DNA of 57,811 bases, taken from NCBI GenBank assembly GCA_030841035.1, contig JAVEDI010000072.1:1-57811 (forward strand), read 5' to 3'. This document shows positions 671 to 18,588 of the stretch, one piece after another. The notes under the pieces are model-generated. The model was given only the letters and a program-made list of their open reading frames with translations. It was not told the origin of the DNA and ran no database searches. Position 1 is the first letter of the stretch, and each line of letters starts with the position of its first letter. The DNA is from Actinomycetota bacterium. GTDB lineage: Bacteria; Actinomycetota; Actinomycetes; JACCUZ01. The position numbers and the translations under genes were made by a program.

Positions 671-1678
671 TCAGCGCTGCGGGCGGGGATGCGCGCGGTA
701 GTAGTCGCGCCAGATCAGCCGGTGGATCGGGATCCAACGTGGCAACGACCGGATGCCGGGCAGGAAAGGGATCAGCAGGAGGCCGAGACTGAGGATCATC
801 ATGAGCCCCCAGACCAGCGCGTCGGCGTTCGGTGAGGATTTGAACGGCTCGATCTGGTACCAGAATGAATAGAGCCACATCCAGGACTGACCGGGGTAGC
901 TCTGGGTCTCGTTCATCATCCCCCACTGGTCGCCACCGAGATGCTCTGCAACCGCGTGATCCTCGAGGTAGGTGCCGTCGGCCAGGAACAGCACCGACTT
1001 GGTGTAATCGGTGTTGTAGAAGCCGCCCTCTCCCTGGATGACCGCCTGCAAGCCACCACCTTGCGCCATTGCCAGCAGGCTCGCGGTGAGCACCGGCACC
1101 GGTCCGTAGTCCCCCGCCGCGACCTTGGCCGGATTGCCACCGGCGGCCTTGCTGGCCAGAGCGTCGGAGTAGGCCCCTCCCCATTTCTGCTGTTGTGCGG
1201 CCGGTGCTGCCTTCCAGGACGCCAACGCCGCGGAAAGTTCCGGAGTAGCGGGCAGCGAGGACAATGGCGTGATCACGAAGTCGTTGACGGAGTCGACGGG
1301 GATCCGCACACCCGCGGCCTTCTGCAGGCCCAGCGGGCCGAGCTTCTGGTTTCCCCCCGTGCTGTTGTAGGGCCGTCCGAGCTCACTCTCGCTCACGCTC
1401 GTGCCCGCCAGTTCCGAGGCCGCGGTCGCGACGAAATCGTTCGGCGTGGCCTGCGCCCACGCCTTCACGGTGAGGCTCTTCTCATCGGGCGAGCTGAACA
1501 CGGCCGCGAGTCCGACCACGAGCGCACCGACGACCAGGACCGCGACCACGAACTCCATGACCAGGTCGTACTCGCGCCCGGCACCCGGCCACGGTCTGGC
1601 TGCGAAGTCATCGGCCGCCACCGAGTGCTGTCGAAGTGGGGACCGACTGCCGGCCGGTCGCGTCTGCTCGGTAGTCAT
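671..1678 (-). CDS. Two-helix membrane protein of a cytochrome b cluster (335 aa)
   Basis: Third gene of a coupled trio. Its ATG overlaps the stop of the cytochrome b gene as ATGA (1675-1678). It has a cytoplasmic N-terminus, a membrane helix at about residues 40-62, a roughly 220-residue outside domain, and a second helix at about 287-308. The tail (LPGIRSLPRWIPIHRLIWR) looks like the end of a cytochrome b C-terminal or subunit IV polypeptide. It has no cysteine, hence no CXXCH haem c site or Rieske cluster, and no PEWY quinol-site motif. I infer a partner subunit that has kept the last helices of a bc-type subunit and gained an outside domain. The exact role is unknown. Confidence 0.7.
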   Translation of the reverse strand: MTTEQTRPAGSRSPLRQHSVAADDFAARPWPGAGREYDLVMEFVVAVLVVGALVVGLAAVFSSPDEKSLTVKAWAQATPNDFVATAASELAGTSVSESELGRPYNSTGGNQKLGPLGLQKAAGVRIPVDSVNDFVITPLSSLPATPELSAALASWKAAPAAQQQKWGGAYSDALASKAAGGNPAKVAAGDYGPVPVLTASLLAMAQGGGLQAVIQGEGGFYNTDYTKSVLFLADGTYLEDHAVAEHLGGDQWGMMNETQSYPGQSWMWLYSFWYQIEPFKSSPNADALVWGLMMILSLGLLLIPFLPGIRSLPRWIPIHRLIWRDYYRAHPRPQR

Positions 1679-2313
1679 GGCGAGGTCTCCTCCCGCGCGT
1701 CCAACGGGGGAACGACACCATGCCGCCGAACGAGAAGTACGTGCCAAACCACGATCGCGCCCACGACCAGCGGCAGCAGCACGACATGCCACAGCAGCAT
1801 CTGACCGACGTTGACGACGTTGAACCAGGCGCCGATACCGACCGAGTTGAGCCCGTCCTTGGCCTCGGAGGAGATCCACTGCGAGTCGAAGTTCGTCTGC
1901 ACCAGGTAACCGGTAAACGCGGCGCCGATTGAGGCAAGGAACGACACGACACCGGTGATCCACGTCATGACCCGCCGGCCGCGCCACGCGGCCATCCAGA
2001 ACTTGCCCCAGAGGTGCACGACCATAAATACGAAGAACAGCTCCACGCTCCATAGGTGGACGCTGTTGACGAAGTGTCCGACCGCGGACACGTGATACCA
2101 CTGCGGCCCTTCCAGGGTCAGGACCACCCCACTCGCGACGATGAAGATCAACGCCGCGATGGTCGCCACACCGAAGACATAGATCCATGACGCGACGTAC
2201 TCCGGCTGCCTGTCCGGCAGCAGCTTGTCCGGCGGCAGGGCGACCTCGGCGCGCTCACGCACCCGACTCGTCCAGCTGCGGCGCTCGGCTGGGCTGTCAG
2301 CCCGCGTCGTCAC
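1675..2313 (-). CDS. Cytochrome b N-terminal domain protein (b6-like)
   Basis: A 212-residue, four-helix di-haem cytochrome b. Ligand pairs are H86/H100 (13 residues between) and H176/H191 (14 between), the spacing seen in cytochrome b6 rather than mitochondrial cytochrome b. Helices lie at about 42-65, 85-104, 117-140 and 168-196. It starts with GTG at 2313, overlapping the previous stop by four bases, and its own stop overlaps the next start. Proteins of this type pass electrons across the membrane between quinone and a partner. The usual partners (Rieske protein, cytochrome c1/f, subunit IV) are not encoded nearby, so it is probably not a standard bc1 or b6f complex. Confidence 0.85.
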   Translation of the reverse strand: MTTRADSPAERRSWTSRVRERAEVALPPDKLLPDRQPEYVASWIYVFGVATIAALIFIVASGVVLTLEGPQWYHVSAVGHFVNSVHLWSVELFFVFMVVHLWGKFWMAAWRGRRVMTWITGVVSFLASIGAAFTGYLVQTNFDSQWISSEAKDGLNSVGIGAWFNVVNVGQMLLWHVVLLPLVVGAIVVWHVLLVRRHGVVPPLDAREETSP

Positions 2314-2480
2314 GGCCGGCTCCTTTGCTTGGGGAACGGCAGCACGATCGCCAGGACGAACAGGACGACGATGAGCGCGATCACCAAGAGGTTCGCCAGC
2401 GAGATCTGGAACGGCCCCCAGCTGATGAAGTGCGCCTTACCGTCCAGCCCGACGGCCATCAACCGATCGGCTCTGCCCAT
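2310..2480 (-). CDS. Small single-helix membrane protein (56 aa), first gene of the cytochrome b trio
   Basis: ATG at 2480 is preceded by AGGAG five bases upstream. The protein has a short polar start, then HFISWGPFQIS, a membrane helix at about residues 28-48, and a basic tail (PKQRSRP). Its stop overlaps the GTG of the cytochrome b gene (GTGA, 2310-2313), which implies translational coupling. It resembles in size the one-helix accessory subunits (PetG/L/N type) of b6f complexes, but I see no sequence match. Assembly or stabilising subunit is an inference from position. Confidence 0.7.
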   Translation of the reverse strand: MGRADRLMAVGLDGKAHFISWGPFQISLANLLVIALIVVLFVLAIVLPFPKQRSRP

Positions 2481-2843
2481 GGCAACTCCTGCTGCTCACC
2501 CGTAGCCCGAACCGAATCCACGCTAGGCAGCAGATGCAGTCCTCGGACAGGGCACAAAGTACTCTCTTCAAGACCTGAGTTCGGCGACTGCGAACAGAAC
2601 AGGCGAAGACCCTGCAGAGCACAGGTGTTTGTCCGGCTTTGATCCCGATGGTCCCCTCGCCGCCAGGCCAAACGCTGCGCCGCCAAAGATGTCGACGGTC
2701 GTCCCCGAGCGCGTGATGCCGGCTGTGCTCCGGCAACCCGAATCGGGCGGCGGCGGCACGCAACCCCACGGGAGCGTCGAGCAGCGGTCCACCACGATGT
2801 CCGCGGTGAACACTCGGCGCGAGTGAGCCGTGGATTGGATCTA
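2481..2843. other. Intergenic region, promoter side of the cytochrome trio
   Basis: 363 bp with no supported gene. It must hold the promoter of the leftward cytochrome trio, but no clear -35/-10 pair stands out. The right end contains a short hairpin at 2811-2825 that may end the DUF389 transcript. Confidence 0.5.
2811..2825 (-). terminator. Possible terminator hairpin after the DUF389 gene
   Basis: CACTCG and CGAGTG form a perfect 6-bp stem with a 3-nt loop, 18 nt past the stop at 2844 on the minus strand. There is no T-run, which is common in actinobacteria. Confidence 0.4.
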
Positions 2844-7901: not shown

Positions 7902-8891
7902 CTAGCCGAACCGGTCGTAGTGGACCCGGTCGAGGGGCACCGGCTGCTCCCGGAGCAGCGCCAGGACGGCGTCGACCATCGGCGGCGGTCCGGCGAGGTA
8001 GACCTCGGCATCGAGCAGTCCCTCGGAGTGCGCGCCGATGCAGTCGGTGACGAACCCAGCCGTACCGTCCCAGCCGGCTCCCGGCGTGACGAGCGCGGCA
8101 TGCGCCCTGCCGTCCGGCAGGGTCGCGACCAGCTCCTGCAGGTCGCTCCAGCGGACCAGCTCGGCGAGCGAAGCGGCCCCGTAGAACACCCGCACCGGGC
8201 GGGGGTCCGCGGTCGTGGACAGCTGGCGCGCAAGCGCGAGGACGGCCGAGATACCGGTGCCGCCGGCCACCAGGAAGATGGGGCGGCCGGAGGGACGGAT
8301 CCACATGTCGCCGTACGGCAGCTCCATGGAGACGGCGGTACCCAGCGGCAGCGTCGACAGCAGCCGGCTGGCCGCTCCGCCCGGGTACTGCTTGGAGATG
8401 AACTCGACCGACCGAGAGCCGGCGTGGCCGACCATCGAGAAGCACCGTCGTAGCCCCGGGCGCAGCTCGAGAACGGCGTACTGCCCGGCACGGTAGGTGG
8501 CAGCACGGTCGAGCTCGTAGGTGAACTGGCGGATGTCCGGGCCCAGCACCTGCACGGCGACCAGCCGCGCCTCGTAGTCGGCGGTCGACAGCTCGGGTCG
8601 TGGCCGGGGACTGACCCAGGTGGGCCTGATGACGACATCCGAGAGCGGCGTGGCCTGACAGGTGACGGTACGCCGGCGGCGCGCGTCGCGCGGGGTGACC
8701 GCCGGCGCACCGTCGAAGAGCAGCGCTACCTCGCCCTCCAGCAGGCTCACCTTGCACGTGCCGCACGAACCCCAACCGCACTCGAACGGCAGCCACACCC
8801 CGTGCCGACGGCCGGCGGAGAGGATCCGCTCGTTGTCCTGGACCTCGAACGACTCACCGCTCGGTGCCACCGTGACGCGGTAGGTGGTCAT
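7902..8891 (-). CDS. tmoF: Monooxygenase reductase component (2Fe-2S, FAD, NAD), TmoF-like
   Basis: 329 residues. The N-terminal plant-type ferredoxin domain has C38, C43, C46 and C78. Next comes a ferredoxin-NADP-reductase-like FAD domain with the RCFSMV motif (R-x-x-S binds FAD). The nucleotide domain has GGTGISAVLA and the closing AGPPPMVDAV segment. It passes electrons from NAD(P)H to the Rieske ferredoxin encoded by the third gene of the operon. It is the last of six genes, 27 bp after tmoE. The length matches TmoF of toluene 4-monooxygenase. Confidence 0.9.
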   Translation of the reverse strand: MTTYRVTVAPSGESFEVQDNERILSAGRRHGVWLPFECGWGSCGTCKVSLLEGEVALLFDGAPAVTPRDARRRRTVTCQATPLSDVVIRPTWVSPRPRPELSTADYEARLVAVQVLGPDIRQFTYELDRAATYRAGQYAVLELRPGLRRCFSMVGHAGSRSVEFISKQYPGGAASRLLSTLPLGTAVSMELPYGDMWIRPSGRPIFLVAGGTGISAVLALARQLSTTADPRPVRVFYGAASLAELVRWSDLQELVATLPDGRAHAALVTPGAGWDGTAGFVTDCIGAHSEGLLDAEVYLAGPPPMVDAVLALLREQPVPLDRVHYDRFG

Positions 8892-8918
8892 CGCGCCCCT
8901 GTCATGAGGCGTTCGTGA

Positions 8919-9923
8919 TCAGAGCCCGCACGCTTGGAGGTGGTCTCGGGCCTGCGTCCCCGTTGCGGAGACGACGTCCGTCGCGGCGAGGCCCACGGGC
9001 GCCTCGTCGAAGGGCTGGGCCAAGGCCTTCACCGCCGCCTCGATGCGGGGCGTCCACGCCGCCGTCCAACCTTCCATGACCTGGCGGAGGTCGGGCTGGC
9101 GGCCCAGGGCGTACTGCGCCAGATCCGCGGACCACTTCCGGCTCCGGTTGCTGTCCTGCTGGAACTCCGCCAGCAGCGCAGCGAGGAAGTGGTCCCCGTT
9201 CCGCTCGGCGAGCTCGGAGAGCCTCCAGTTCACCACCGCGTCGAGGGAAGGCTTGACCACCAGGTTGAGCGCGACGAACGCCTCCCCCCAGTCATAGGCG
9301 ATCAGGAGGTTCTCCAAGGTCTCCCGCAGTGGTTGCCACACCGGGTCCTTCTCCCAGGCGCTCCGGGCGGTGGCCGTGGCGGCCAGCTCGTCGCCGTGCG
9401 CGTTGGCGAGCATCTTCGTCGAGTAGGCGATCCGCTGGATCCTGCGCAGCTCGTCGGCCGCCTGGAAGTTCGCGCAGTTGGTGATGTACGCCGAGGGGGC
9501 CATCTGTCCGACGTACAGGCCGACCATCTGCAGGATGTGCAGCGGGAACCGGAGAGGGATGTACAGCTCGCGCAGGGTCGAGACCCATTCGTCGCTGAGG
9601 CCCTCCACGCTCGCGGACTCTTCGTGACGGTCGATCAGCTTGTCGACGTACGTCTCCCTGTCGTGCTGGAGCGCGACGTAGTCCTTGTACGTGAGCTTGT
9701 ACGGGTCGCGGAAGTCTTCCCAGTCATCGACCTGGAAGGGCGAGCCTTCCCGGTTGCGCAGGTACCAGTCGTTGAGGGGCATCCCGGGATGCTCGAAGGG
9801 CGTGGGCTCGCGTCGGAAGTGGTAGTGGAACTTGGCCGTCACCGCTTCGTACGCACTCGGACGTCGACGTACGTCGCCGAGCAGACTCCAGGTCTTCGGC
9901 TGCTGACGCTGTCTTGTCGCCAC
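8919..9923 (-). CDS. tmoE: Diiron monooxygenase hydroxylase beta subunit, TmoE-like
   Basis: 334 residues from a GTG at 9923, two bases after the effector-gene stop. This is the all-helical ferritin-like fold of hydroxylase beta subunits, without iron ligands. Family signs are KFHYHFRREPTPFEHP near residue 32, a DPYKLTYKDYVALQHDRE stretch, and NCANFQAADELRRIQRIAY in the middle. It pairs with the alpha subunit in the (alpha-beta-gamma)2 hydroxylase. The length is close to TmoE. Confidence 0.9.
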   Translation of the reverse strand: MATRQRQQPKTWSLLGDVRRRPSAYEAVTAKFHYHFRREPTPFEHPGMPLNDWYLRNREGSPFQVDDWEDFRDPYKLTYKDYVALQHDRETYVDKLIDRHEESASVEGLSDEWVSTLRELYIPLRFPLHILQMVGLYVGQMAPSAYITNCANFQAADELRRIQRIAYSTKMLANAHGDELAATATARSAWEKDPVWQPLRETLENLLIAYDWGEAFVALNLVVKPSLDAVVNWRLSELAERNGDHFLAALLAEFQQDSNRSRKWSADLAQYALGRQPDLRQVMEGWTAAWTPRIEAAVKALAQPFDEAPVGLAATDVVSATGTQARDHLQACGL

Positions 9924-9925
9924 GG

Positions 9926-10231
9926 TCAGTCCTGCCTCTCGAGGTACCAGACGATCTCTTCATCGGTGGTGTGCATCCGGCCCGCGAAGCCGGACAGTGC
10001 CGGCTCCAGGCGCGACAGGTCGAAGGTCGCTTGTCCCAAGGCCTCTTGCATGCTCGCCCGGGTCAGGCGGCACCGGTCTGCCACGTTGATGCGGATATAG
10101 CCGCCCTGGTCCTCGACGACGACCTCGGCGTCGGGGTTGTCGGCCTCGACCGCGCTGATCACCGCGTCCGCGAGATCTGCGTCGACCCCACGGATCAACG
10201 GGCCCACGAGCTTCACATGCTGTGCACTCAT
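9926..10231 (-). CDS. tmoD: Monooxygenase effector (coupling) protein, TmoD-like
   Basis: 101 residues, MmoB/DmpM family. It binds the hydroxylase without any cofactor and gates oxygen activation at the diiron site. The sequence VKLVGPLIRGVDADLADAVISAVE and the later YIRINVADRCRLTR are typical of the family's core. Its start overlaps the Rieske ferredoxin stop by four bases (ATGA). The length agrees with TmoD (about 103). Confidence 0.9.
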   Translation of the reverse strand: MSAQHVKLVGPLIRGVDADLADAVISAVEADNPDAEVVVEDQGGYIRINVADRCRLTRASMQEALGQATFDLSRLEPALSGFAGRMHTTDEEIVWYLERQD

Positions 10232-10608
10232 GACTGTGCCCTCTCGCTGCTGCTGGCGCGGTGGTGATGGCTGAGCCCGTCCTGGGCGATACCGACTCGT
10301 ACCTTGTCGTCGGAGACGGCTACGCGGTACTGGTACAGCTGACAGCCGGCGGGGTTGATGCCGGCGCCGGTGCGGAGGTCGAACTCCCAGCGGTGACCGC
10401 TGCACAGCAGGCGCCCGGTCGACTCGTCCCACTCGCCGTCGACCAGCAGCACCTCCTGGTGCGGGCACAGCCCCTGGTACGCCTTGATGGATCCCCCCGG
10501 CAGGTGCACCAGGAGAACGGGCTCTCCGTCCAGCTCGACATCGGCGATGTCGCCCTCCCACAGCTCGTCGAGGGAGAGGGCGTCGACCCAACGGACGGCT
10601 TGGCTCAT
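10228..10608 (-). CDS. tmoC: Rieske-type ferredoxin of the monooxygenase, TmoC-like
   Basis: 126 residues. Cluster ligands are C48-x-H50 and C69-x2-H72 (CPHQ ... CSGHRW). It shuttles single electrons from the reductase to the hydroxylase. A Rieske ferredoxin separates four-component alkene/toluene monooxygenases from three-component methane and phenol systems. The start at 10608 overlaps the gamma-subunit stop by four bases. A 15-residue His/Ser-rich tail after the core is slightly longer than in TmoC. Confidence 0.92.
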   Translation of the reverse strand: MSQAVRWVDALSLDELWEGDIADVELDGEPVLLVHLPGGSIKAYQGLCPHQEVLLVDGEWDESTGRLLCSGHRWEFDLRTGAGINPAGCQLYQYRVAVSDDKVRVGIAQDGLSHHHRASSSERAQS

Positions 10609-10850
10609 GTGTAGCTGACCTGCAGCACGTCCATCGGTGCCACTCCGGCGCTGACCACGGTCGCATCCGGGGCCAGGGTGTTGCCCTGATGGCGTACCTG
10701 CATGGGCCGTGGCTGGGGGGCCACGCGCCGGCCGACGGTGTGATGAGCGATCTTCTCCGCGACGAGGGTCATGGGGTCTTCGTCGTCGATGGGGACGAGG
10801 ACCACGACGAAGTCGTGCTCGAAGATGCCTTGTACCGGGAACAAAGCCAT
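10605..10850 (-). CDS. tmoB: Monooxygenase hydroxylase gamma subunit, TmoB-like
   Basis: 81 residues with a ubiquitin-like start (MALFPVQGIFEHDFVVVLVPIDDEDPM), as in TmoB/TouB. The end ATVVSAGVAPMDVLQVSY also fits the family. It binds the alpha subunit in the hydroxylase. It sits 45 bp after tmoA, and its stop overlaps tmoC. Confidence 0.88.
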   Translation of the reverse strand: MALFPVQGIFEHDFVVVLVPIDDEDPMTLVAEKIAHHTVGRRVAPQPRPMQVRHQGNTLAPDATVVSAGVAPMDVLQVSYT

Positions 10851-10895
10851 GGTCGTCCAATCCTGGCGTCTGCTGGAGTGTCACCTGCCCGAGCG

Positions 10896-12407
10896 TCACG
10901 TCCCAGGGACGGCCAGCTGCTTCTCGAATGCCCACGCGTAGTTGGTGGCGTCCTGCCCCATCTCGGCCAGGGACAGCGACATGTAGGCCAGCGCACCTTC
11001 CATCGTGGGTGGCTGGATGTGCCCCGCGAGGAACCGGTCGACGAGCGAGAGCTGTCCCGCGAACCGAGCCGGGTTCTGCTCGTACACCCACTTGCAGGGT
11101 TCGGAGCAGAACAGCAGGCGTCGACCATCACGGTCGACGATGAGCGGTTCCGGATGCGCCAGCCTGCCCGCGTTGAACCCTGCCGGGTTCACCAGCGGGA
11201 TCTGGCACATGTTGCAGATCGTCGGGAAGGTCTCGGGGAGCGTCAGCTCCGGGTGCCCGTCGCGCACGTTGGCCGTGATGACGTCCCAGTACTGCCCGAA
11301 GCTGTCGTTCCAGCCGGGGTACTTCTCCTCGAGCCACTCGCGCTCAGCCGGCGACACTCCTGCATCGGGGTTCCACCAGACCGTCGGGCGCCAGAACCAC
11401 ACGCCCAGGTGGAGCGCGTGGTGGTACCAGTCGAGCTCGGGCAGGAAGTGCTCCTTCCAGTACCACGGCACCTCGAGGCCGAAGTCGCGGAACTGGTCCA
11501 TGAACTGCTTGACGATCAGCTCCTCCATGAACTCCTTGAAGGAGTGGGTGCGGTGCTCCAGCGGCGTGTAGTAGTCCATCGAGAGTCCGGTGAGCAACGC
11601 GAACACGTGCCAGCTGCGCCAGAACATGTGGTCGACCAGCTTCTGGGCCACCTCACCCTGGCCGTTGGCGATCAGGATCTTGACCGTCGGTTCGCCCTGC
11701 TGCGAGTGGCGCGCCTCGTCGGTCTGGATCGAGGAGATGAGGGCGCCGAAGTCGACGTCGCCGACCTTCATCGCGTCGGCTGCCATGCCGAGGAACTGCA
11801 GGTTGGTGAAGCCGGTCTCGAAGGTGAAGGTGAGCTGGATCGCGGTGGAGACCGCGTCGTTCGCCGTGAACATGTCGTCGAACAGGCTGCGCGCGGCGAT
11901 CGCGCCCCACTCGTTGGTGTGCATCGTCTTGTGCGCCCAGTCCGCGCGCGGCTCCTTCGCCAGCAGCCCGTAGGGGAAGTACGTCTGGATCTGTCCGTGC
12001 CTGGTCTCGTCGAGCGTGCCGTACGTCGCCATGTTGCGCCACGCCGCAGCGCGCCCGAACCGCCCCATGCGCGCCTCGCCGATACCGGCCAGGTACTCAG
12101 GGACGGCGATGGCCCCGTAGTGCGCGAGGATCGCGGACTTCCAGCCGGGGTCGAGCTCCTCGAAGATGCGGGAACGACTCAGCACCGCGTTGATCGAGTA
12201 GACCGAGGCGTCCTTGCCGACCTGGTTGTGCACGTACTCCGGGTAGGTGATCTTGTATGGTTCGTCCCATCCCCACCACTTCTCGGTAGGTATCCCATAG
12301 CTGTTCGAGAGATCCTGCGGCCAGACGTCTTCGTCGCTGACGTAGGACAGGGTCCAGTTCATGTCGCGGGTGAGGTCGTACCACTCCGAGCGGGCAAGTC
12401 GTGGCAT
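10896..12407 (-). CDS. tmoA: Diiron monooxygenase hydroxylase alpha subunit, TmoA-like
   Basis: 503 residues, the active-site subunit. The iron ligands fall at the numbers known from toluene 4-monooxygenase: E104, E134, H137, E197, E231 and H234, with the oxygen-gate T201. The pocket keeps I100, Q141, F176, F196 and F205. Position 103, Gly in TmoA and a regioselectivity determinant, is Pro. The C-terminus has two Cys pairs, CNMC (398, 401) and CSEPC (434, 438), like the zinc/YHS-type site of some phenol and alkene hydroxylases and absent from TmoA as I recall it. It hydroxylates or epoxidises an aromatic or alkene substrate with O2. The substrate is not known. It is the first gene of the six-gene operon. 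Confidence 0.93.
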   Translation of the reverse strand: MPRLARSEWYDLTRDMNWTLSYVSDEDVWPQDLSNSYGIPTEKWWGWDEPYKITYPEYVHNQVGKDASVYSINAVLSRSRIFEELDPGWKSAILAHYGAIAVPEYLAGIGEARMGRFGRAAAWRNMATYGTLDETRHGQIQTYFPYGLLAKEPRADWAHKTMHTNEWGAIAARSLFDDMFTANDAVSTAIQLTFTFETGFTNLQFLGMAADAMKVGDVDFGALISSIQTDEARHSQQGEPTVKILIANGQGEVAQKLVDHMFWRSWHVFALLTGLSMDYYTPLEHRTHSFKEFMEELIVKQFMDQFRDFGLEVPWYWKEHFLPELDWYHHALHLGVWFWRPTVWWNPDAGVSPAEREWLEEKYPGWNDSFGQYWDVITANVRDGHPELTLPETFPTICNMCQIPLVNPAGFNAGRLAHPEPLIVDRDGRRLLFCSEPCKWVYEQNPARFAGQLSLVDRFLAGHIQPPTMEGALAYMSLSLAEMGQDATNYAWAFEKQLAVPGT

Positions 12408-14162: not shown

Positions 14163-15473
14163 ATGGTGTCCTCCCGGCGTGCGTGGCTGATCTGGTCCAT
14201 CGGGGTGACGGCGTACGTCGTCGCCGTCCTGCAACGTACGTCGCTCGGGGTGGCGGGCATCGACGCCGCCCACCGCTTCCACGCGAGCGCCAGCGTCCTG
14301 GCCCTGTTCGCCGTCCTGCAGCTGCTCGTCTACGCCGGCCTGCAGGTGCCGGTGGGCCTGCTGGTCGATCGCCTCGGGCCGCGCGCGCTGATCGTCGGCG
14401 GCGCCGTGCTGATGGCGCTCGGCCAGGTGCTGCTCGCGCTCAGCGTCAGCATCGGTCCGGCCGTGCTCGGGCGGGTGCTGGTCGGCGCGGGTGACGCCGC
14501 CACGTTCATCAGCGTGCTGCGACTGGTCACCAGCTGGATGCCGCCGCGTCGCGCGCCGCTGATGACCCAGCTGACCGGCATCGTCGGGCAGGCCGGTCAG
14601 GTGCTCAGCGCCTTCCCGCTCGTCGCCCTGCTGCACGGTCCCGGCTGGACCACCGCCTTCCTCTCGGCAGCCTCGCTCAGCGCCCTGGTCGCCGTCCTGG
14701 TGGCACTCGTGGTGCGCGACGCGCCGGCAGGGGCACTGCGCCATCACGACGCCCCCACGGCGGCCAAGGTCGCCCGTGACCTGCGCAGCGTCTGGCGGCA
14801 TCCCGGAACGCGGCTGGGGCTGTGGACCCACGTGACGGCGCAGTTCTCCGGCACGGTCTTCGCGCTCCTGTGGGGCTACCCGTTCCTCGTGACAGGAGAG
14901 GGGCGCAGCCCGCGCAGCGCATCGACCCTGATGACGGTGTTCGTGGTTGCCGGCATGCTCGTCGCCCCGTTCGTGGGTGTGCTGGTGGAGCGCCACCCCT
15001 TGCGCCGCTCCTGGCTGGTGCTCGGCATCGTCGCGGTCTGCGTGACGGCCTGGACTGCGGTGCTCGCCTGGCCCGGCCCGAGCCCCCTGTGGCTGCTGGT
15101 CGCGCTCATGCTCGCCCTGGCGATCGGCGGGCCCGGCTCGATGATCGCCTTCGACTACGCGCGCACCTTCAACCCGCCCAACCGGCTCGGCACCGCGACA
15201 GGCATCGTGAACGTCGGCGGCTTCGTCGCCTCGCTCGTGACGATGCTGCTGGTCGGTCTCATCCTCGACCTGCGCAGCTCCGGCACAGGCGACTACTCGC
15301 TCGGCGACTTCCGGGTCGCCTTCGCCTCCCAGTACCTCGTCTGGGCAGTAGGTGTCCTCGGCATCGTGCTGACCCGGCGCAAGGTCCGCGCCCGCATGGC
15401 CCACGAGGGCGTCGTCGTGCCGCCGATCCGCGACGCTATCGCGCGGCGTCGCCGCGGCGGCGGCGCACCCTAG
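14163..15473 (+). CDS. Major facilitator superfamily transporter
   Basis: 436 residues with 12 predicted helices. The motif-A loop after helix 2 reads GLLVDRLGPRALIVGG, the classic MFS signature. The start (RRAWLIWSIGVTAYVVAVLQRTSLGVAG) is typical of a nitrate/organic-anion or 'CynX/NarK-like' actinobacterial subgroup. ATG at 14151 is an equally possible start, and neither has a strong ribosome site. Its TAG shares the palindrome CTAG with the stop of the convergent acVLRF1 gene. Substrate unknown. Confidence 0.9.
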   Translation: MVSSRRAWLIWSIGVTAYVVAVLQRTSLGVAGIDAAHRFHASASVLALFAVLQLLVYAGLQVPVGLLVDRLGPRALIVGGAVLMALGQVLLALSVSIGPAVLGRVLVGAGDAATFISVLRLVTSWMPPRRAPLMTQLTGIVGQAGQVLSAFPLVALLHGPGWTTAFLSAASLSALVAVLVALVVRDAPAGALRHHDAPTAAKVARDLRSVWRHPGTRLGLWTHVTAQFSGTVFALLWGYPFLVTGEGRSPRSASTLMTVFVVAGMLVAPFVGVLVERHPLRRSWLVLGIVAVCVTAWTAVLAWPGPSPLWLLVALMLALAIGGPGSMIAFDYARTFNPPNRLGTATGIVNVGGFVASLVTMLLVGLILDLRSSGTGDYSLGDFRVAFASQYLVWAVGVLGIVLTRRKVRARMAHEGVVVPPIRDAIARRRRGGGAP

Positions 15474-16129
15474 ACCGGGCCGGGCGCGTCCACGATGCGC
15501 ACCTGCACGGCCCGGAACTGCGCCGGCGTGGCCTGCAGCACGCTGAGGCGCGGGTCGGGCACGTCGAGGCGCACCGGCGAGACCAAGGGCCGCAGGCGCT
15601 GGAGCCGTCGGTCGTCGAGCACCGTCTCCAGGGCTCGCCGGTCACCGCCGGTCACCACCGCGTCGAGACCGTCGACGACCGGCAGCAGCACCCGCACCGC
15701 CACGTCGGCGGCCGAGGCGAGCGCTACGCGCACCTGACCCTCCCGGCGTCGGGCGAACCGCTGCTGCGACCAACCTCCTGCCGAGCTGCGGCCGTGCACC
15801 TGGCGCGAGCCCACCTTCGACGTACGCAGGGTCGCACCGTCGAAGACACCGGCGGCGTGGCCGCCGAGCCGCACCAGGAGCACGCCGACGCAGCGCGGCG
15901 CGAGTGCGTGCGCCACCACCCCGCCGTACGGCGCCTCCGGCTGGGGCGGCAGCGGCGGGAACGGCACCGTCAGCTCGGCACGGGCACCGTCACCGGCGTG
16001 CAGGGTCACGGTCTCCGGCGACGCCTCCCAGGTGGCCGCACCGTGGCGGTCGGCAAAGCCCTCGAGCCATCGTTGCAGGCGCTCGGGACCGACCTGCACC
16101 ATGCGCCCGGCGGTCGGGTGGGTGGGCAC
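15470..16129 (-). CDS. acVLRF1-family peptidyl-tRNA hydrolase / release factor-like protein
   Basis: 219 residues from a GTG at 16129, two bases after the flavoenzyme stop. The key block is KVGSRQVHGRSSAGGWSQQR (about residues 104-123), the glycine- and glutamine-rich catalytic loop of Vms1/VLRF1 release factors. The ERF1-like core (VRVLLPVVDGLDAVVTGGDR) follows. Members are thought to hydrolyse peptidyl-tRNA on split or stalled large ribosomal subunits. Pairing with a metabolic flavoenzyme gene is probably incidental operon structure. Confidence 0.82.
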   Translation of the reverse strand: MPTHPTAGRMVQVGPERLQRWLEGFADRHGAATWEASPETVTLHAGDGARAELTVPFPPLPPQPEAPYGGVVAHALAPRCVGVLLVRLGGHAAGVFDGATLRTSKVGSRQVHGRSSAGGWSQQRFARRREGQVRVALASAADVAVRVLLPVVDGLDAVVTGGDRRALETVLDDRRLQRLRPLVSPVRLDVPDPRLSVLQATPAQFRAVQVRIVDAPGPV

Positions 16130-16131
16130 CG

Positions 16132-18588
16132 CTAGCACTTCACGCGCAGCATCTGCGGGTCGTACAGCGGCCGGAGGGACGCCCGGGCGGGGTAGAGGCG
16201 CCCCGCGACGTCGACCTCCCAGTCGCCGCCCTCGACGTAGGCGCGGTCCACCGGCTCGCCAGCGTCGACCATCGCCAGCCCGACCGCCCCCCCGAGGGTG
16301 TGCCCGTAGGACGCCGCGCGCACGTAGCCGACCGGCTTGCCGTCGCGCAGGACCGGCTCGGCATGGAACATCAGCGGGTCCGGGTCGGTGAGCAGCACCT
16401 GCACCAACCGGCGGGTCAGCGGCCCCTCGGCCTTCTTGGCGAGCACCGCGTCGCGACCGAGGAAGCCACCGGGCTTGTCGAGGTCGACCGCGAAACCCAG
16501 TCCTGCCTCCAGCACCGAGTCGGTGTTGTCGATGTCGTGGCCGTAGTCGCGGTAGCCCTTCTCCATGCGCAGGCTGGCGAGCGCCTTCAGACCGGCGTGT
16601 CGCATCCCGTAGGCCACTCCGGCCTCGACGATCCGGTCGTAGACGTGGGCGCCTTGTTCTGTGGGGATGTAGAGCTCGTAGCCCAGCTCGCCGAGATAGG
16701 TGATCCGCACGCACAGCACCGGTGCATACCCGATCGCGATCTCCCGCGCGGCGCGGAAGGGGAACGCCTCGTTGGACATGTCCGCGGTCGTGACCGACTG
16801 CAGCAGCTCACGCGACCGGGGGCCCTGCACGTTCAGCTGCGACCACCCCGACGTGACGTCGGTGACGAACGCGTGCGTGCCCTCGTCGAGATGGCGGCGC
16901 ATCCACGTCTGCGCGTGCCGGTGCGCGGTGTCGGAGGCCACCACCCAGAAGCGGTCGTCCTCGAGCTTCGTCACGGTCAGGTCTGCCTCGAGCGTGCCGG
17001 CGTCGTTGAGCCACTGCGTGTAGGTGATGCGTCCGCTCTCGGCGTCGACGTCGGCGCAGGAGAGCCGGTCGAGGAAGCGCCCGGCATCGCGCCCCTGCAC
17101 GAGGAACTTCGCCATGAACGACATGTCCATGCAGATGACGCCCTCGCGCGCGGCCCGGTGCTCGGCGGCCCACCACGGGAACCAGTTCTGCCGTCCCCAG
17201 CTGAGCGGGCCGGCCACGGCCGGCGTGCCGTCGGGCGTGTACCAGTCAGGGCTCTCCCAACCGCTCACGTCGCGGAAGTAGGCACCAGCCGCCGCCAACC
17301 GGTCGTGGAACGCGGAGACCTTGGCACCACGGGCGGTCTGCATCGACCTGCTCGGGTAGTGGCACTGGTAGACCGCGCCGAGGCTCTCGACGGTGCGGGT
17401 GGCGCGGTACTCCGGCGTGGACTGGTAGCGGTGCAGCCGGTCGATGTGGAAGCCCGTCACGTCGATGTCGGGACGGCCCTCGACGATCCAGTGCGCCAGC
17501 GCGCGGCCCAGACCACCACCGGTCAGGATACCGATCGAGTTCAGCCCGGCCGCGACGAAGTAGTTGCGCAGCTCGGGCGCCTCGCCGACCACCGGCTGCA
17601 GGTCCGGGGTGAAGGACTCGGGGCCGCAGAAGAACTTCCGGATGCCCACGTCGAGCGACACCGGGACACGGGACATCGCCTTCTCGAGGTAGGGACCCAT
17701 CCGCTCCCAGTCCGGCGGCAGCTCGCCGAAGGAGAAGCCGTCCGGCACTCCCCCGACCTGCCACGGCGCGCACTCGGCCTCGAAGAGCCCGATCATCAGG
17801 CCCCCGCCCTCCTCGCGGAAGTACCCGTAGGAGGCAGGGTCCTCGAGCACCGGCCAGGTCCCCGACATCTCCGGGATCGTGTCGGTGATCAGGTAGTAGT
17901 GCTCCGCGGCCTGCAGCGGGATGGTGACCCCTGACCGCTCCCCCAGCTGCCGTGCCCACATGCCGGTGCAGTTGAGCACGTACTCCGCCTCGACGTCACC
18001 GACCGGCGTGCGCACCCCGGTCACCGCGCCACGGCGGGTGAGCACGTCGGTGACCGGCACGCCCTCCACGATGCGCGCGCCGGCCTGCCGCGCCCCCTTC
18101 GCGAGCGACATCGTCACGTCCACGGGGTTGACCCGGCCGTCCTGCTCGACGTAGAACCCCGCGAGGATGTCGTCGGTGCGCGCGAGCGGGAACAGCTGCC
18201 CGACCTCGGCCGCCGAGATCTCGTGGACGTCCACCCCGCAGTGCCGGTTGAAGGCAGATACCCGCCGGTACTCCTCGAGGCGGTCCGCGTCGGTCGCCAC
18301 CTCGATGAACCCGACCGGCGTGAAGCCGGTGGCGAGACCGGTCTCGGCCTCCAGCCGGGCGTAGAGGTCGCGGGTGTACGTGCGCAGCCGCGTGGACGTC
18401 TCCGACGTGGAGCCGAAGGTGACCATCAGGCCGGCCGCGTGCCAGGTCGTGCCCGACGTCAGCCGGTCCCGCTCGAGCAGCAGTACGTCGCAGCCGAGCC
18501 GCGCGAGGTGGTAGGTCACCGAGGTGCCGATCACGCCGCCACCGACCACGACGACCCGGGCGCGCTGTGGCAAGGGCGACTCCGACAT
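16132..18588 (-). CDS. Dimethylglycine/sarcosine dehydrogenase-like flavoprotein with GcvT domain
   Basis: 818 residues in four parts: an FAD-binding DAO domain (1-380, GGGVIGTSVTYHLARLG near residue 16), a short FAO_M linker domain (about 385-440), and GcvT-like tetrahydrofolate-binding domains (about 440-710 and 720-815). TTWHAAGLM holds the His that covalently binds FAD in mammalian dimethylglycine dehydrogenase. The family oxidatively demethylates N-methylglycines and passes the C1 unit to tetrahydrofolate. No sarcosine oxidase beta/gamma/delta genes are nearby. Substrate (dimethylglycine, sarcosine or another N-methyl amine) is undetermined. The start at 18588 looks leaderless. Confidence 0.88.
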   Translation of the reverse strand: MSESPLPQRARVVVVGGGVIGTSVTYHLARLGCDVLLLERDRLTSGTTWHAAGLMVTFGSTSETSTRLRTYTRDLYARLEAETGLATGFTPVGFIEVATDADRLEEYRRVSAFNRHCGVDVHEISAAEVGQLFPLARTDDILAGFYVEQDGRVNPVDVTMSLAKGARQAGARIVEGVPVTDVLTRRGAVTGVRTPVGDVEAEYVLNCTGMWARQLGERSGVTIPLQAAEHYYLITDTIPEMSGTWPVLEDPASYGYFREEGGGLMIGLFEAECAPWQVGGVPDGFSFGELPPDWERMGPYLEKAMSRVPVSLDVGIRKFFCGPESFTPDLQPVVGEAPELRNYFVAAGLNSIGILTGGGLGRALAHWIVEGRPDIDVTGFHIDRLHRYQSTPEYRATRTVESLGAVYQCHYPSRSMQTARGAKVSAFHDRLAAAGAYFRDVSGWESPDWYTPDGTPAVAGPLSWGRQNWFPWWAAEHRAAREGVICMDMSFMAKFLVQGRDAGRFLDRLSCADVDAESGRITYTQWLNDAGTLEADLTVTKLEDDRFWVVASDTAHRHAQTWMRRHLDEGTHAFVTDVTSGWSQLNVQGPRSRELLQSVTTADMSNEAFPFRAAREIAIGYAPVLCVRITYLGELGYELYIPTEQGAHVYDRIVEAGVAYGMRHAGLKALASLRMEKGYRDYGHDIDNTDSVLEAGLGFAVDLDKPGGFLGRDAVLAKKAEGPLTRRLVQVLLTDPDPLMFHAEPVLRDGKPVGYVRAASYGHTLGGAVGLAMVDAGEPVDRAYVEGGDWEVDVAGRLYPARASLRPLYDPQMLRVKC

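Follow-up and report, generated by a model that had tools for sequence, protein, structure and literature searches.

Cytochrome b is familiar mainly as the core of complexes that depend on a Rieske protein. In a stretch of 57,811 nucleotides from an Actinomycetota bacterium (assembly GCA_030841035.1, contig JAVEDI010000072.1; hereafter the window), a cytochrome b6-like gene lies between the genes for a 56-aa protein and a 335-aa protein (Table 1). The question raised by this locus is what such a core does without the partners of a standard bc complex. The initial annotation suggested that the three genes may encode a distinct module for quinone-linked electron transfer whose outside domain is new.

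Table 1. Features of the gene trio, its upstream region and the di-iron monooxygenase cluster in the window.
Feature	Position	Strand	Remarks
Gene 1 (P0003)	2310-2480	-	56-aa single-helix peptide; ATG start; homologue in 77/80 loci directly upstream of gene 2
Gene 2 (P0002)	1675-2313	-	212-aa di-haem cytochrome b6-type protein; GTG start; PF13631, E 1.2e-14
Gene 3 (P0001)	671-1678	-	335 aa; two TM helices and a large outside domain; ATG start; no library or PDB match
Codon of H86 (P0002)	2056-2058	-	outer haem ligand, helix B; invariant in 79 sequences
Codon of H100 (P0002)	2014-2016	-	inner haem ligand, helix B; invariant in 79 sequences
Codon of H176 (P0002)	1786-1788	-	outer haem ligand, helix D; invariant in 79 sequences
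Codon of H191 (P0002)	1741-1743	-	inner haem ligand, helix D; invariant in 79 sequences
TM helix 1 of P0001	1496-1564	-	residues 39-61; position of subunit IV helix E (AlphaFold2 model)
Outside domain of P0001	890-1483	-	~195 aa, about residues 66-263 (AlphaFold2)
GDQWGMMNE...PGQxWxWL motif of P0001	872-934	-	residues 249-269, before TM helix 2; (near-)invariant in 80 sequences
TM helix 2 of P0001	764-826	-	residues 285-305; position of subunit IV helix F (AlphaFold2 model)
Degenerate DosR-box-like site AGTACTTTGTGCCC	2550-2563	-	70-83 bases upstream of gene 1; 4 mismatches to strict core
FAD/2Fe-2S reductase	7902-8891	-	di-iron monooxygenase cluster
Phenol_Hydrox subunits, two	8919-9923, 10896-12407	-	di-iron monooxygenase cluster
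MmoB/DmpM effector	9926-10666	-	di-iron monooxygenase cluster
Rieske-type match	10354-10590	-	within di-iron monooxygenase cluster

The three genes form a tight operon with overlaps of 4 bases each, at 2310-2313 and 1675-1678; coordinates, lengths and overlaps were all as initially annotated. Relatives of P0001 were collected in one genome-contig scan, which confirmed 221 of them, and the best 80 were taken as the locus set. Among these best 80 of 221, homologues of P0001 and P0002 were present in 80/80 loci and the complete trio in 77/80, always in the order P0003-P0002-P0001. No match to P0003 was found in loci L016, L057 and L071, and the sequence of L016 ends inside gene 2. The 4-base overlap was observed between genes 1 and 2 in 66 and between genes 2 and 3 in 49 of the 80 loci, both counts being lower bounds with start codons picked automatically. 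In locus L083, genes 2 and 3 are a single continuous frame (9338-10924) encoding a natural 529-aa fusion; its host is an AT-richer Actinomycetes MAG. The trio is a conserved unit, well above what chance would produce.

It is also an accessory yet widespread module. The 335-aa protein was detected in 40/394 sampled genomes of the class (~10%) and in 11/396 sampled from the phylum, and was not found in the one same-genus relative examined. Trio hosts extend from small genomes of 1.4-2.0 Mb up to Streptomyces. In one genome of another class, the b6-like and 335-aa genes are present in two diverged versions (L135 and L136), which are useful for telling essential from lineage-specific residues. A trio in a MAG labelled Acidobacteria (L028) may be mis-binned actinobacterial sequence. 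An origin from a mobile element or phage was discarded after P0001 gave no plasmid match and P0002 no phage match, and so was a defence-system reading after PADLOC gave no match. Elsewhere, the minus strand of the window encodes a soluble di-iron monooxygenase cluster at 7902-12407 and an acVLRF1/baeRF-type release-factor-like protein at 15470-16714.

P0002 exceeded two Pfam cut-offs (PF13631 with 55.1 bits vs. 27; PF00033 with 27.4 vs. 27.2), and its best solved relative in phmmer was Chlamydomonas cytochrome b6 (1q90_B, E 9e-10). The haem ligands proposed initially, H86/H100 and H176/H191, were invariant across 79 family sequences, with 14 residues between H176 and H191. The haem-packing glycines G48, G62, G121 and G135, whose spacing we take to be that of cytochrome b, were invariant in a 23-row alignment, and the inner loop KFxMAAWRGxRxxTW as well as the C-terminal end VRxxGVVPP were b6-like. 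Thus, P0002 is like cytochrome b6 (PetB) and the N-terminal part of cytochrome b (PF00033, PF13631) with respect to its four helices, bis-histidine b haems, glycine pairs, 14-residue helix D spacing and inner-side C-terminal end, and by these sequence features it is a genuine di-haem cytochrome b6 homologue. The trio is a variant of the cytochrome b6-type core and not an altogether new kind of protein.

The outer face of P0002 reads differently. The outer cd loop, which in b6 and bc1 bears the quinol-oxidation helix, has the sequence GYLxQxNFDSQWI..AKDxLNxxGxGAxFNV, i.e., QxNFDSQWI instead of a PW(G/D)Q-type motif. Unlike b6, which has one cysteine for haem ci, P0002 has no conserved cysteine. 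The other trio proteins have none either, so that the trio lacks a CxxCH haem c site. The best NCBIfam match of P0002 was ExtP, a b-type cytochrome of the Geobacter ext operon (NF040969, E 3.4e-13), with 49.9 bits, below the equivalog cut-off of 290. Like ExtP, P0002 is a protein of the cytochrome b6 type that is not part of a bc operon; ExtP, unlike the trio, is encoded in one cluster together with several putative c-type cytochromes (PMC5877670).

P0001 lacks cysteines and PEWY/PDWY, as had been noted initially, and 69/80 aligned family sequences were cysteine-free, with one cysteine in the remaining ones. Its 23 aligned relatives share 47-78% identity with it. Searched by sequence against Pfam, NCBIfam and the PDB, as a single sequence or as a 24-sequence profile (to E 10), P0001 gave no match; membership in a known family was thus dropped, as no homology was detected in the libraries searched. 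The AlphaFold2 model had a mean pLDDT of 72.6, with values above 90 in much of the outside domain (93-97 at residues 71-90 and 131-210) and poor ones at about residues 91-130 and 241-270. Foldseek returned no fold match for this model in the PDB (best E 4.3), and therefore the outside domain is without a solved counterpart at Foldseek sensitivity. From the model, it may represent a new fold.

Where cytochrome b has P(E/D)WY, the consensus before the second helix of P0001 is GDQWGMMNETGNYPGQxWxWLYxFWYQ; P(E/D)WY was absent from P0001 and from the family alignment, and PGQxWxWL stands at that position. The diverged copies L135 and L136 (34-38% identity) retained QWG, ETGNYPG and W.W, but not MM. 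A metal site formed by the MM pair was dropped, since the pair is lost in these copies while the rest of the motif stays. Taken at the level of sequence, the b6 core is canonical (four ligands, four glycines, inner loop and C-terminal end), but the canonical outer quinol-oxidation motifs are gone and other conserved ones stand in their place, namely QxNFDSQWI..AKDxLN in P0002 and QWGxxNETxxxPG..W.W in P0001. Since the replacing motifs are strongly conserved, the outer site is judged to be rebuilt and under constraint, not decayed.

The tail of P0001 had been described as resembling subunit IV. In the profile searches against cytochrome b C-terminal and b6f subunit families (Pfam, hmmsearch, hhalign) P0001 remained without a match, and hhalign found no similarity to QcrB. 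The resemblance thus has no sequence-profile signal, and is based on the architecture, on the L083 fusion and on a fold match, weak but whole-length, between this fusion and QcrB. As for subunit IV (PetD) and the C-terminal part of cytochrome b, the P0001 gene lies just after a b6-like gene and its two helices take the E and F positions; in L083, its fusion to the b6 part is reminiscent of the single-chain cytochrome b of bc1. The model of the fusion (pLDDT 71.6, pTM 0.65, membrane part of low confidence in places) was aligned by Foldseek along most of Mycobacterium and Corynebacterium QcrB (prob 0.99-1.00, E 4e-3 to 8e-3, TM 0.25) and also to Rhodobacter cytochrome b, with prob 0.98-1.00, E 4e-3 to 3.5e-2 and TM 0.25 over all matches. 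This model alignment supports, without proving it, that P0001 occupies the place of subunit IV. Unlike subunit IV, P0001 lacks helix G and PEWY, bears the insert of ~195 aa on the outside and shows no detectable profile similarity. P0003 was confirmed as a one-helix protein with the conserved positions wG, N, M and PFp; by charge, its orientation is predicted to be N-out/C-in, and it is like the small single-helix b6f subunits in position only.

The upstream regions point to the regulation of the trio. In many loci, GGGACC(TT/AA)nG(G/T)CCC occurs 50-100 bases before gene 1. The exact DosR box (GGGNCYWWNGNCCC) was found within 150 bases upstream in 22/77 loci, while 0.29 were expected from the pattern density elsewhere in these loci; the pattern was fixed after the first scan had been seen, which flatters this enrichment somewhat, though hardly by two orders of magnitude. 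When similar upstream regions were removed, the box was still present in 17/68 loci, as compared to 0.14 in shuffled sequences, and none of the permuted motifs (n = 500) reached the observed count. The form of the box agrees with the published site CGGGACCTTCGGCCCT of OsdR, the Streptomyces orthologue of DevR with the consensus AGGGCCGATCGGCCCT (PMC5069765); the main text of that paper nowhere uses the word cytochrome. In the window, AGTACTTTGTGCCC was the best conserved upstream block in the alignment with L009 (GGGACTTTGTGCCC) and L010. It sits where L009 has a near-perfect box and, with its mismatches, is weak in the window host.

Genes of the DosR-regulon type were located within 10 kb in 22/80 loci, i.e., about a quarter, several closely related Arthrobacter included. 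They encode USP, a DevS-like GAF kinase, Acg-family oxidoreductase, PNPOx(-like) proteins, phosphoketolase and P-type ATPase, and one neighbouring Acg-family oxidoreductase exceeds its NCBIfam cut-off. Thus, many trio loci resemble the DosR/DevR (OsdR) regulon both in their regulon-type neighbours and in boxes upstream that have the published form. The host itself encodes USP, a DevS-like kinase, a DevR-like regulator and an Acg-type oxidoreductase in a row on contig C72 (L113), a small dormancy-type island. The kinase shares 43% identity with that of L011 (E 2e-125), and the best PDB match of the regulator is M. tuberculosis DevR (E 5e-75). The trio genomes were not enriched for the regulon marker Acg (15/40 vs. 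174/354, counted by hand from two genome lists), so that no positive association was seen at the genome level; many trio hosts are small genomes without Acg. The DosR link covers only part of the family. Over a substantial part of the range of the trio, its induction by the hypoxia/NO system DosR/DevR (OsdR) is probable.

No gene beyond the trio was shared as a neighbour among the 80 loci, and no redox gene was a constant neighbour. The neighbourhoods were unrelated, comprising either DosR-type islands or housekeeping genes (ftsY/amt/glnD/ffh, recG, purine synthesis, glutamine synthetase). As stated in the initial annotation, partners of a standard bc complex are absent at the locus, since neither Rieske nor cytochrome c/f was a shared neighbour in the 80 loci. 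The search around the 335-aa protein thus yielded a trio that is always together and no fixed further partner, and such a partner gene was rejected across the neighbourhoods surveyed. As no partner gene is constant, the trio complex would be autonomous, and its reactant would be either made by the trio itself or generally available, such as quinone, a small molecule or a common protein.

We consider it an even chance that the trio is a three-subunit transmembrane electron module that is linked to quinone, is independent of Rieske protein, has a rebuilt outer site and, over part of its range, is controlled by hypoxia/dormancy. The three proteins would form a complex; in it, P0001 would lie against the b6 core in the manner of subunit IV and cover the outer site with its insert. 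The path of the electrons across the membrane would lead via the two b haems and would connect the menaquinone pool with the rebuilt outer-face site, and quinone would bind at the inner site, as suggested by homology. A Rieske protein, cytochrome c or electron bifurcation would have no part in this path. The initial proposal of a distinct quinone-linked module with a new outside domain thus stands as regards a self-contained unit without Rieske or cytochrome c and an ectodomain without PDB relatives, whereas electron transfer and quinone binding are what we infer. The wide conservation and the link to DosR boxes and hypoxia had not been part of the initial annotation.

The same self-containment would also suit a small-molecule oxidoreductase like superoxide oxidase (CybB), in which superoxide, NO or another species reacts outside and electrons pass via two haems to quinone inside, or in reverse. 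A four-helix enzyme of this kind, superoxide oxidase (SOO), is described in PMC11869295. The two b haems, the conserved outer site without cofactors and the upstream boxes of an O2/NO-responsive regulator class in part of the range are in line with such a function. SOO, however, is a single chain that belongs to another cytochrome b family and lacks a large ectodomain, and we regard this explanation as unlikely, if still worth considering. Somewhat less probable is that the trio anchors an extracytoplasmic enzyme encoded at another place and conducts electrons for it, the outside domain being the docking platform, comparable to the cytochrome b subunits of periplasmic hydrogenases and formate dehydrogenases. 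A large cofactor-free outside domain, two membrane-spanning haems and conservation on the inner side would fit this role, but no candidate enzyme was a constant neighbour in more than 90 loci, and the hosts span 1.4-Mb genomes to Streptomyces.

The trio might alternatively be a cytochrome b that borrows QcrA (Rieske) and QcrC from the canonical operon in a variant bcc complex. It resembles actinobacterial QcrCAB (cytochrome bcc) in occurring in the same organisms and in its quinone-linked cytochrome b core, and QcrB was the best fold match of the fusion model. On contig C110, the host encodes a standard pair of QcrA (CTHVGC...CPCHQS) and QcrB (PDFY). A second qcrB paralogue with PDWY on contig C44 (about 90871-92100, L089) has, unlike that pair, no Rieske motif in ~1.2 kb upstream. 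Superficially, the C110 genes supply the Rieske and PEWY-type subunits missing from the trio; QcrA and the PDFY QcrB, however, are a separate pair with its own cytochrome b. P0002 shares only 22-25% identity with the host QcrBs and has no operon with Rieske, whereas QcrB carries PDWY/PDFY, works with QcrA and QcrC (di-haem c) and is encoded separately. Canonical qcrB was present in the host and in 14/14 other trio genomes tested, which would be in line with borrowing; it also makes the trio an addition and not a replacement. Since P(E/D)WY and the outer cd1 loop motif for Rieske-side quinol oxidation are missing, other residues being strictly conserved there, and since the domain of ~195 aa takes up the outer face, a variant bcc complex is improbable. 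A non-catalytic redox/haem sensor or haem carrier in which the outside domain serves for signalling, for which stress-type regulon genes nearby in part of the range and the lack of cofactors in that domain could be cited, is very improbable given the conserved residues around the haems on both membrane faces, the lack of a cytoplasmic signalling domain and the lack of a signalling gene as constant neighbour.

For the Rieske-independent, quinone-linked module, the probable induction by DosR/DevR (OsdR) suggests redox balance or the upkeep of membrane potential when the oxygen-dependent chain stalls as the likely role. A description of the trio, a Rieske-less b6-type complex, a DosR-regulated cytochrome b or the motif was not found in the open-access literature and family libraries searched, which is no proof of absence; the trio was thus not recognizable there as an already described family. 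It is conceivable, and we propose it tentatively, that the trio represents a new class of cytochrome b complex in Actinobacteria that is independent of Rieske protein, with its own outer active site and a new-fold roof, turning over the quinone pool in hypoxia or dormancy. As the 335-aa protein is unannotated in the libraries searched, the module is invisible in routine annotation. A widespread version of cytochrome b without Rieske or cytochrome c and with another outer site would be a natural case for learning which other functions this core can serve. The link to a hypoxia regulator makes the trio a candidate for maintaining redox balance and membrane potential in non-growing Actinobacteria, with Streptomyces and Arthrobacter as environmental hosts in which this may be tested.
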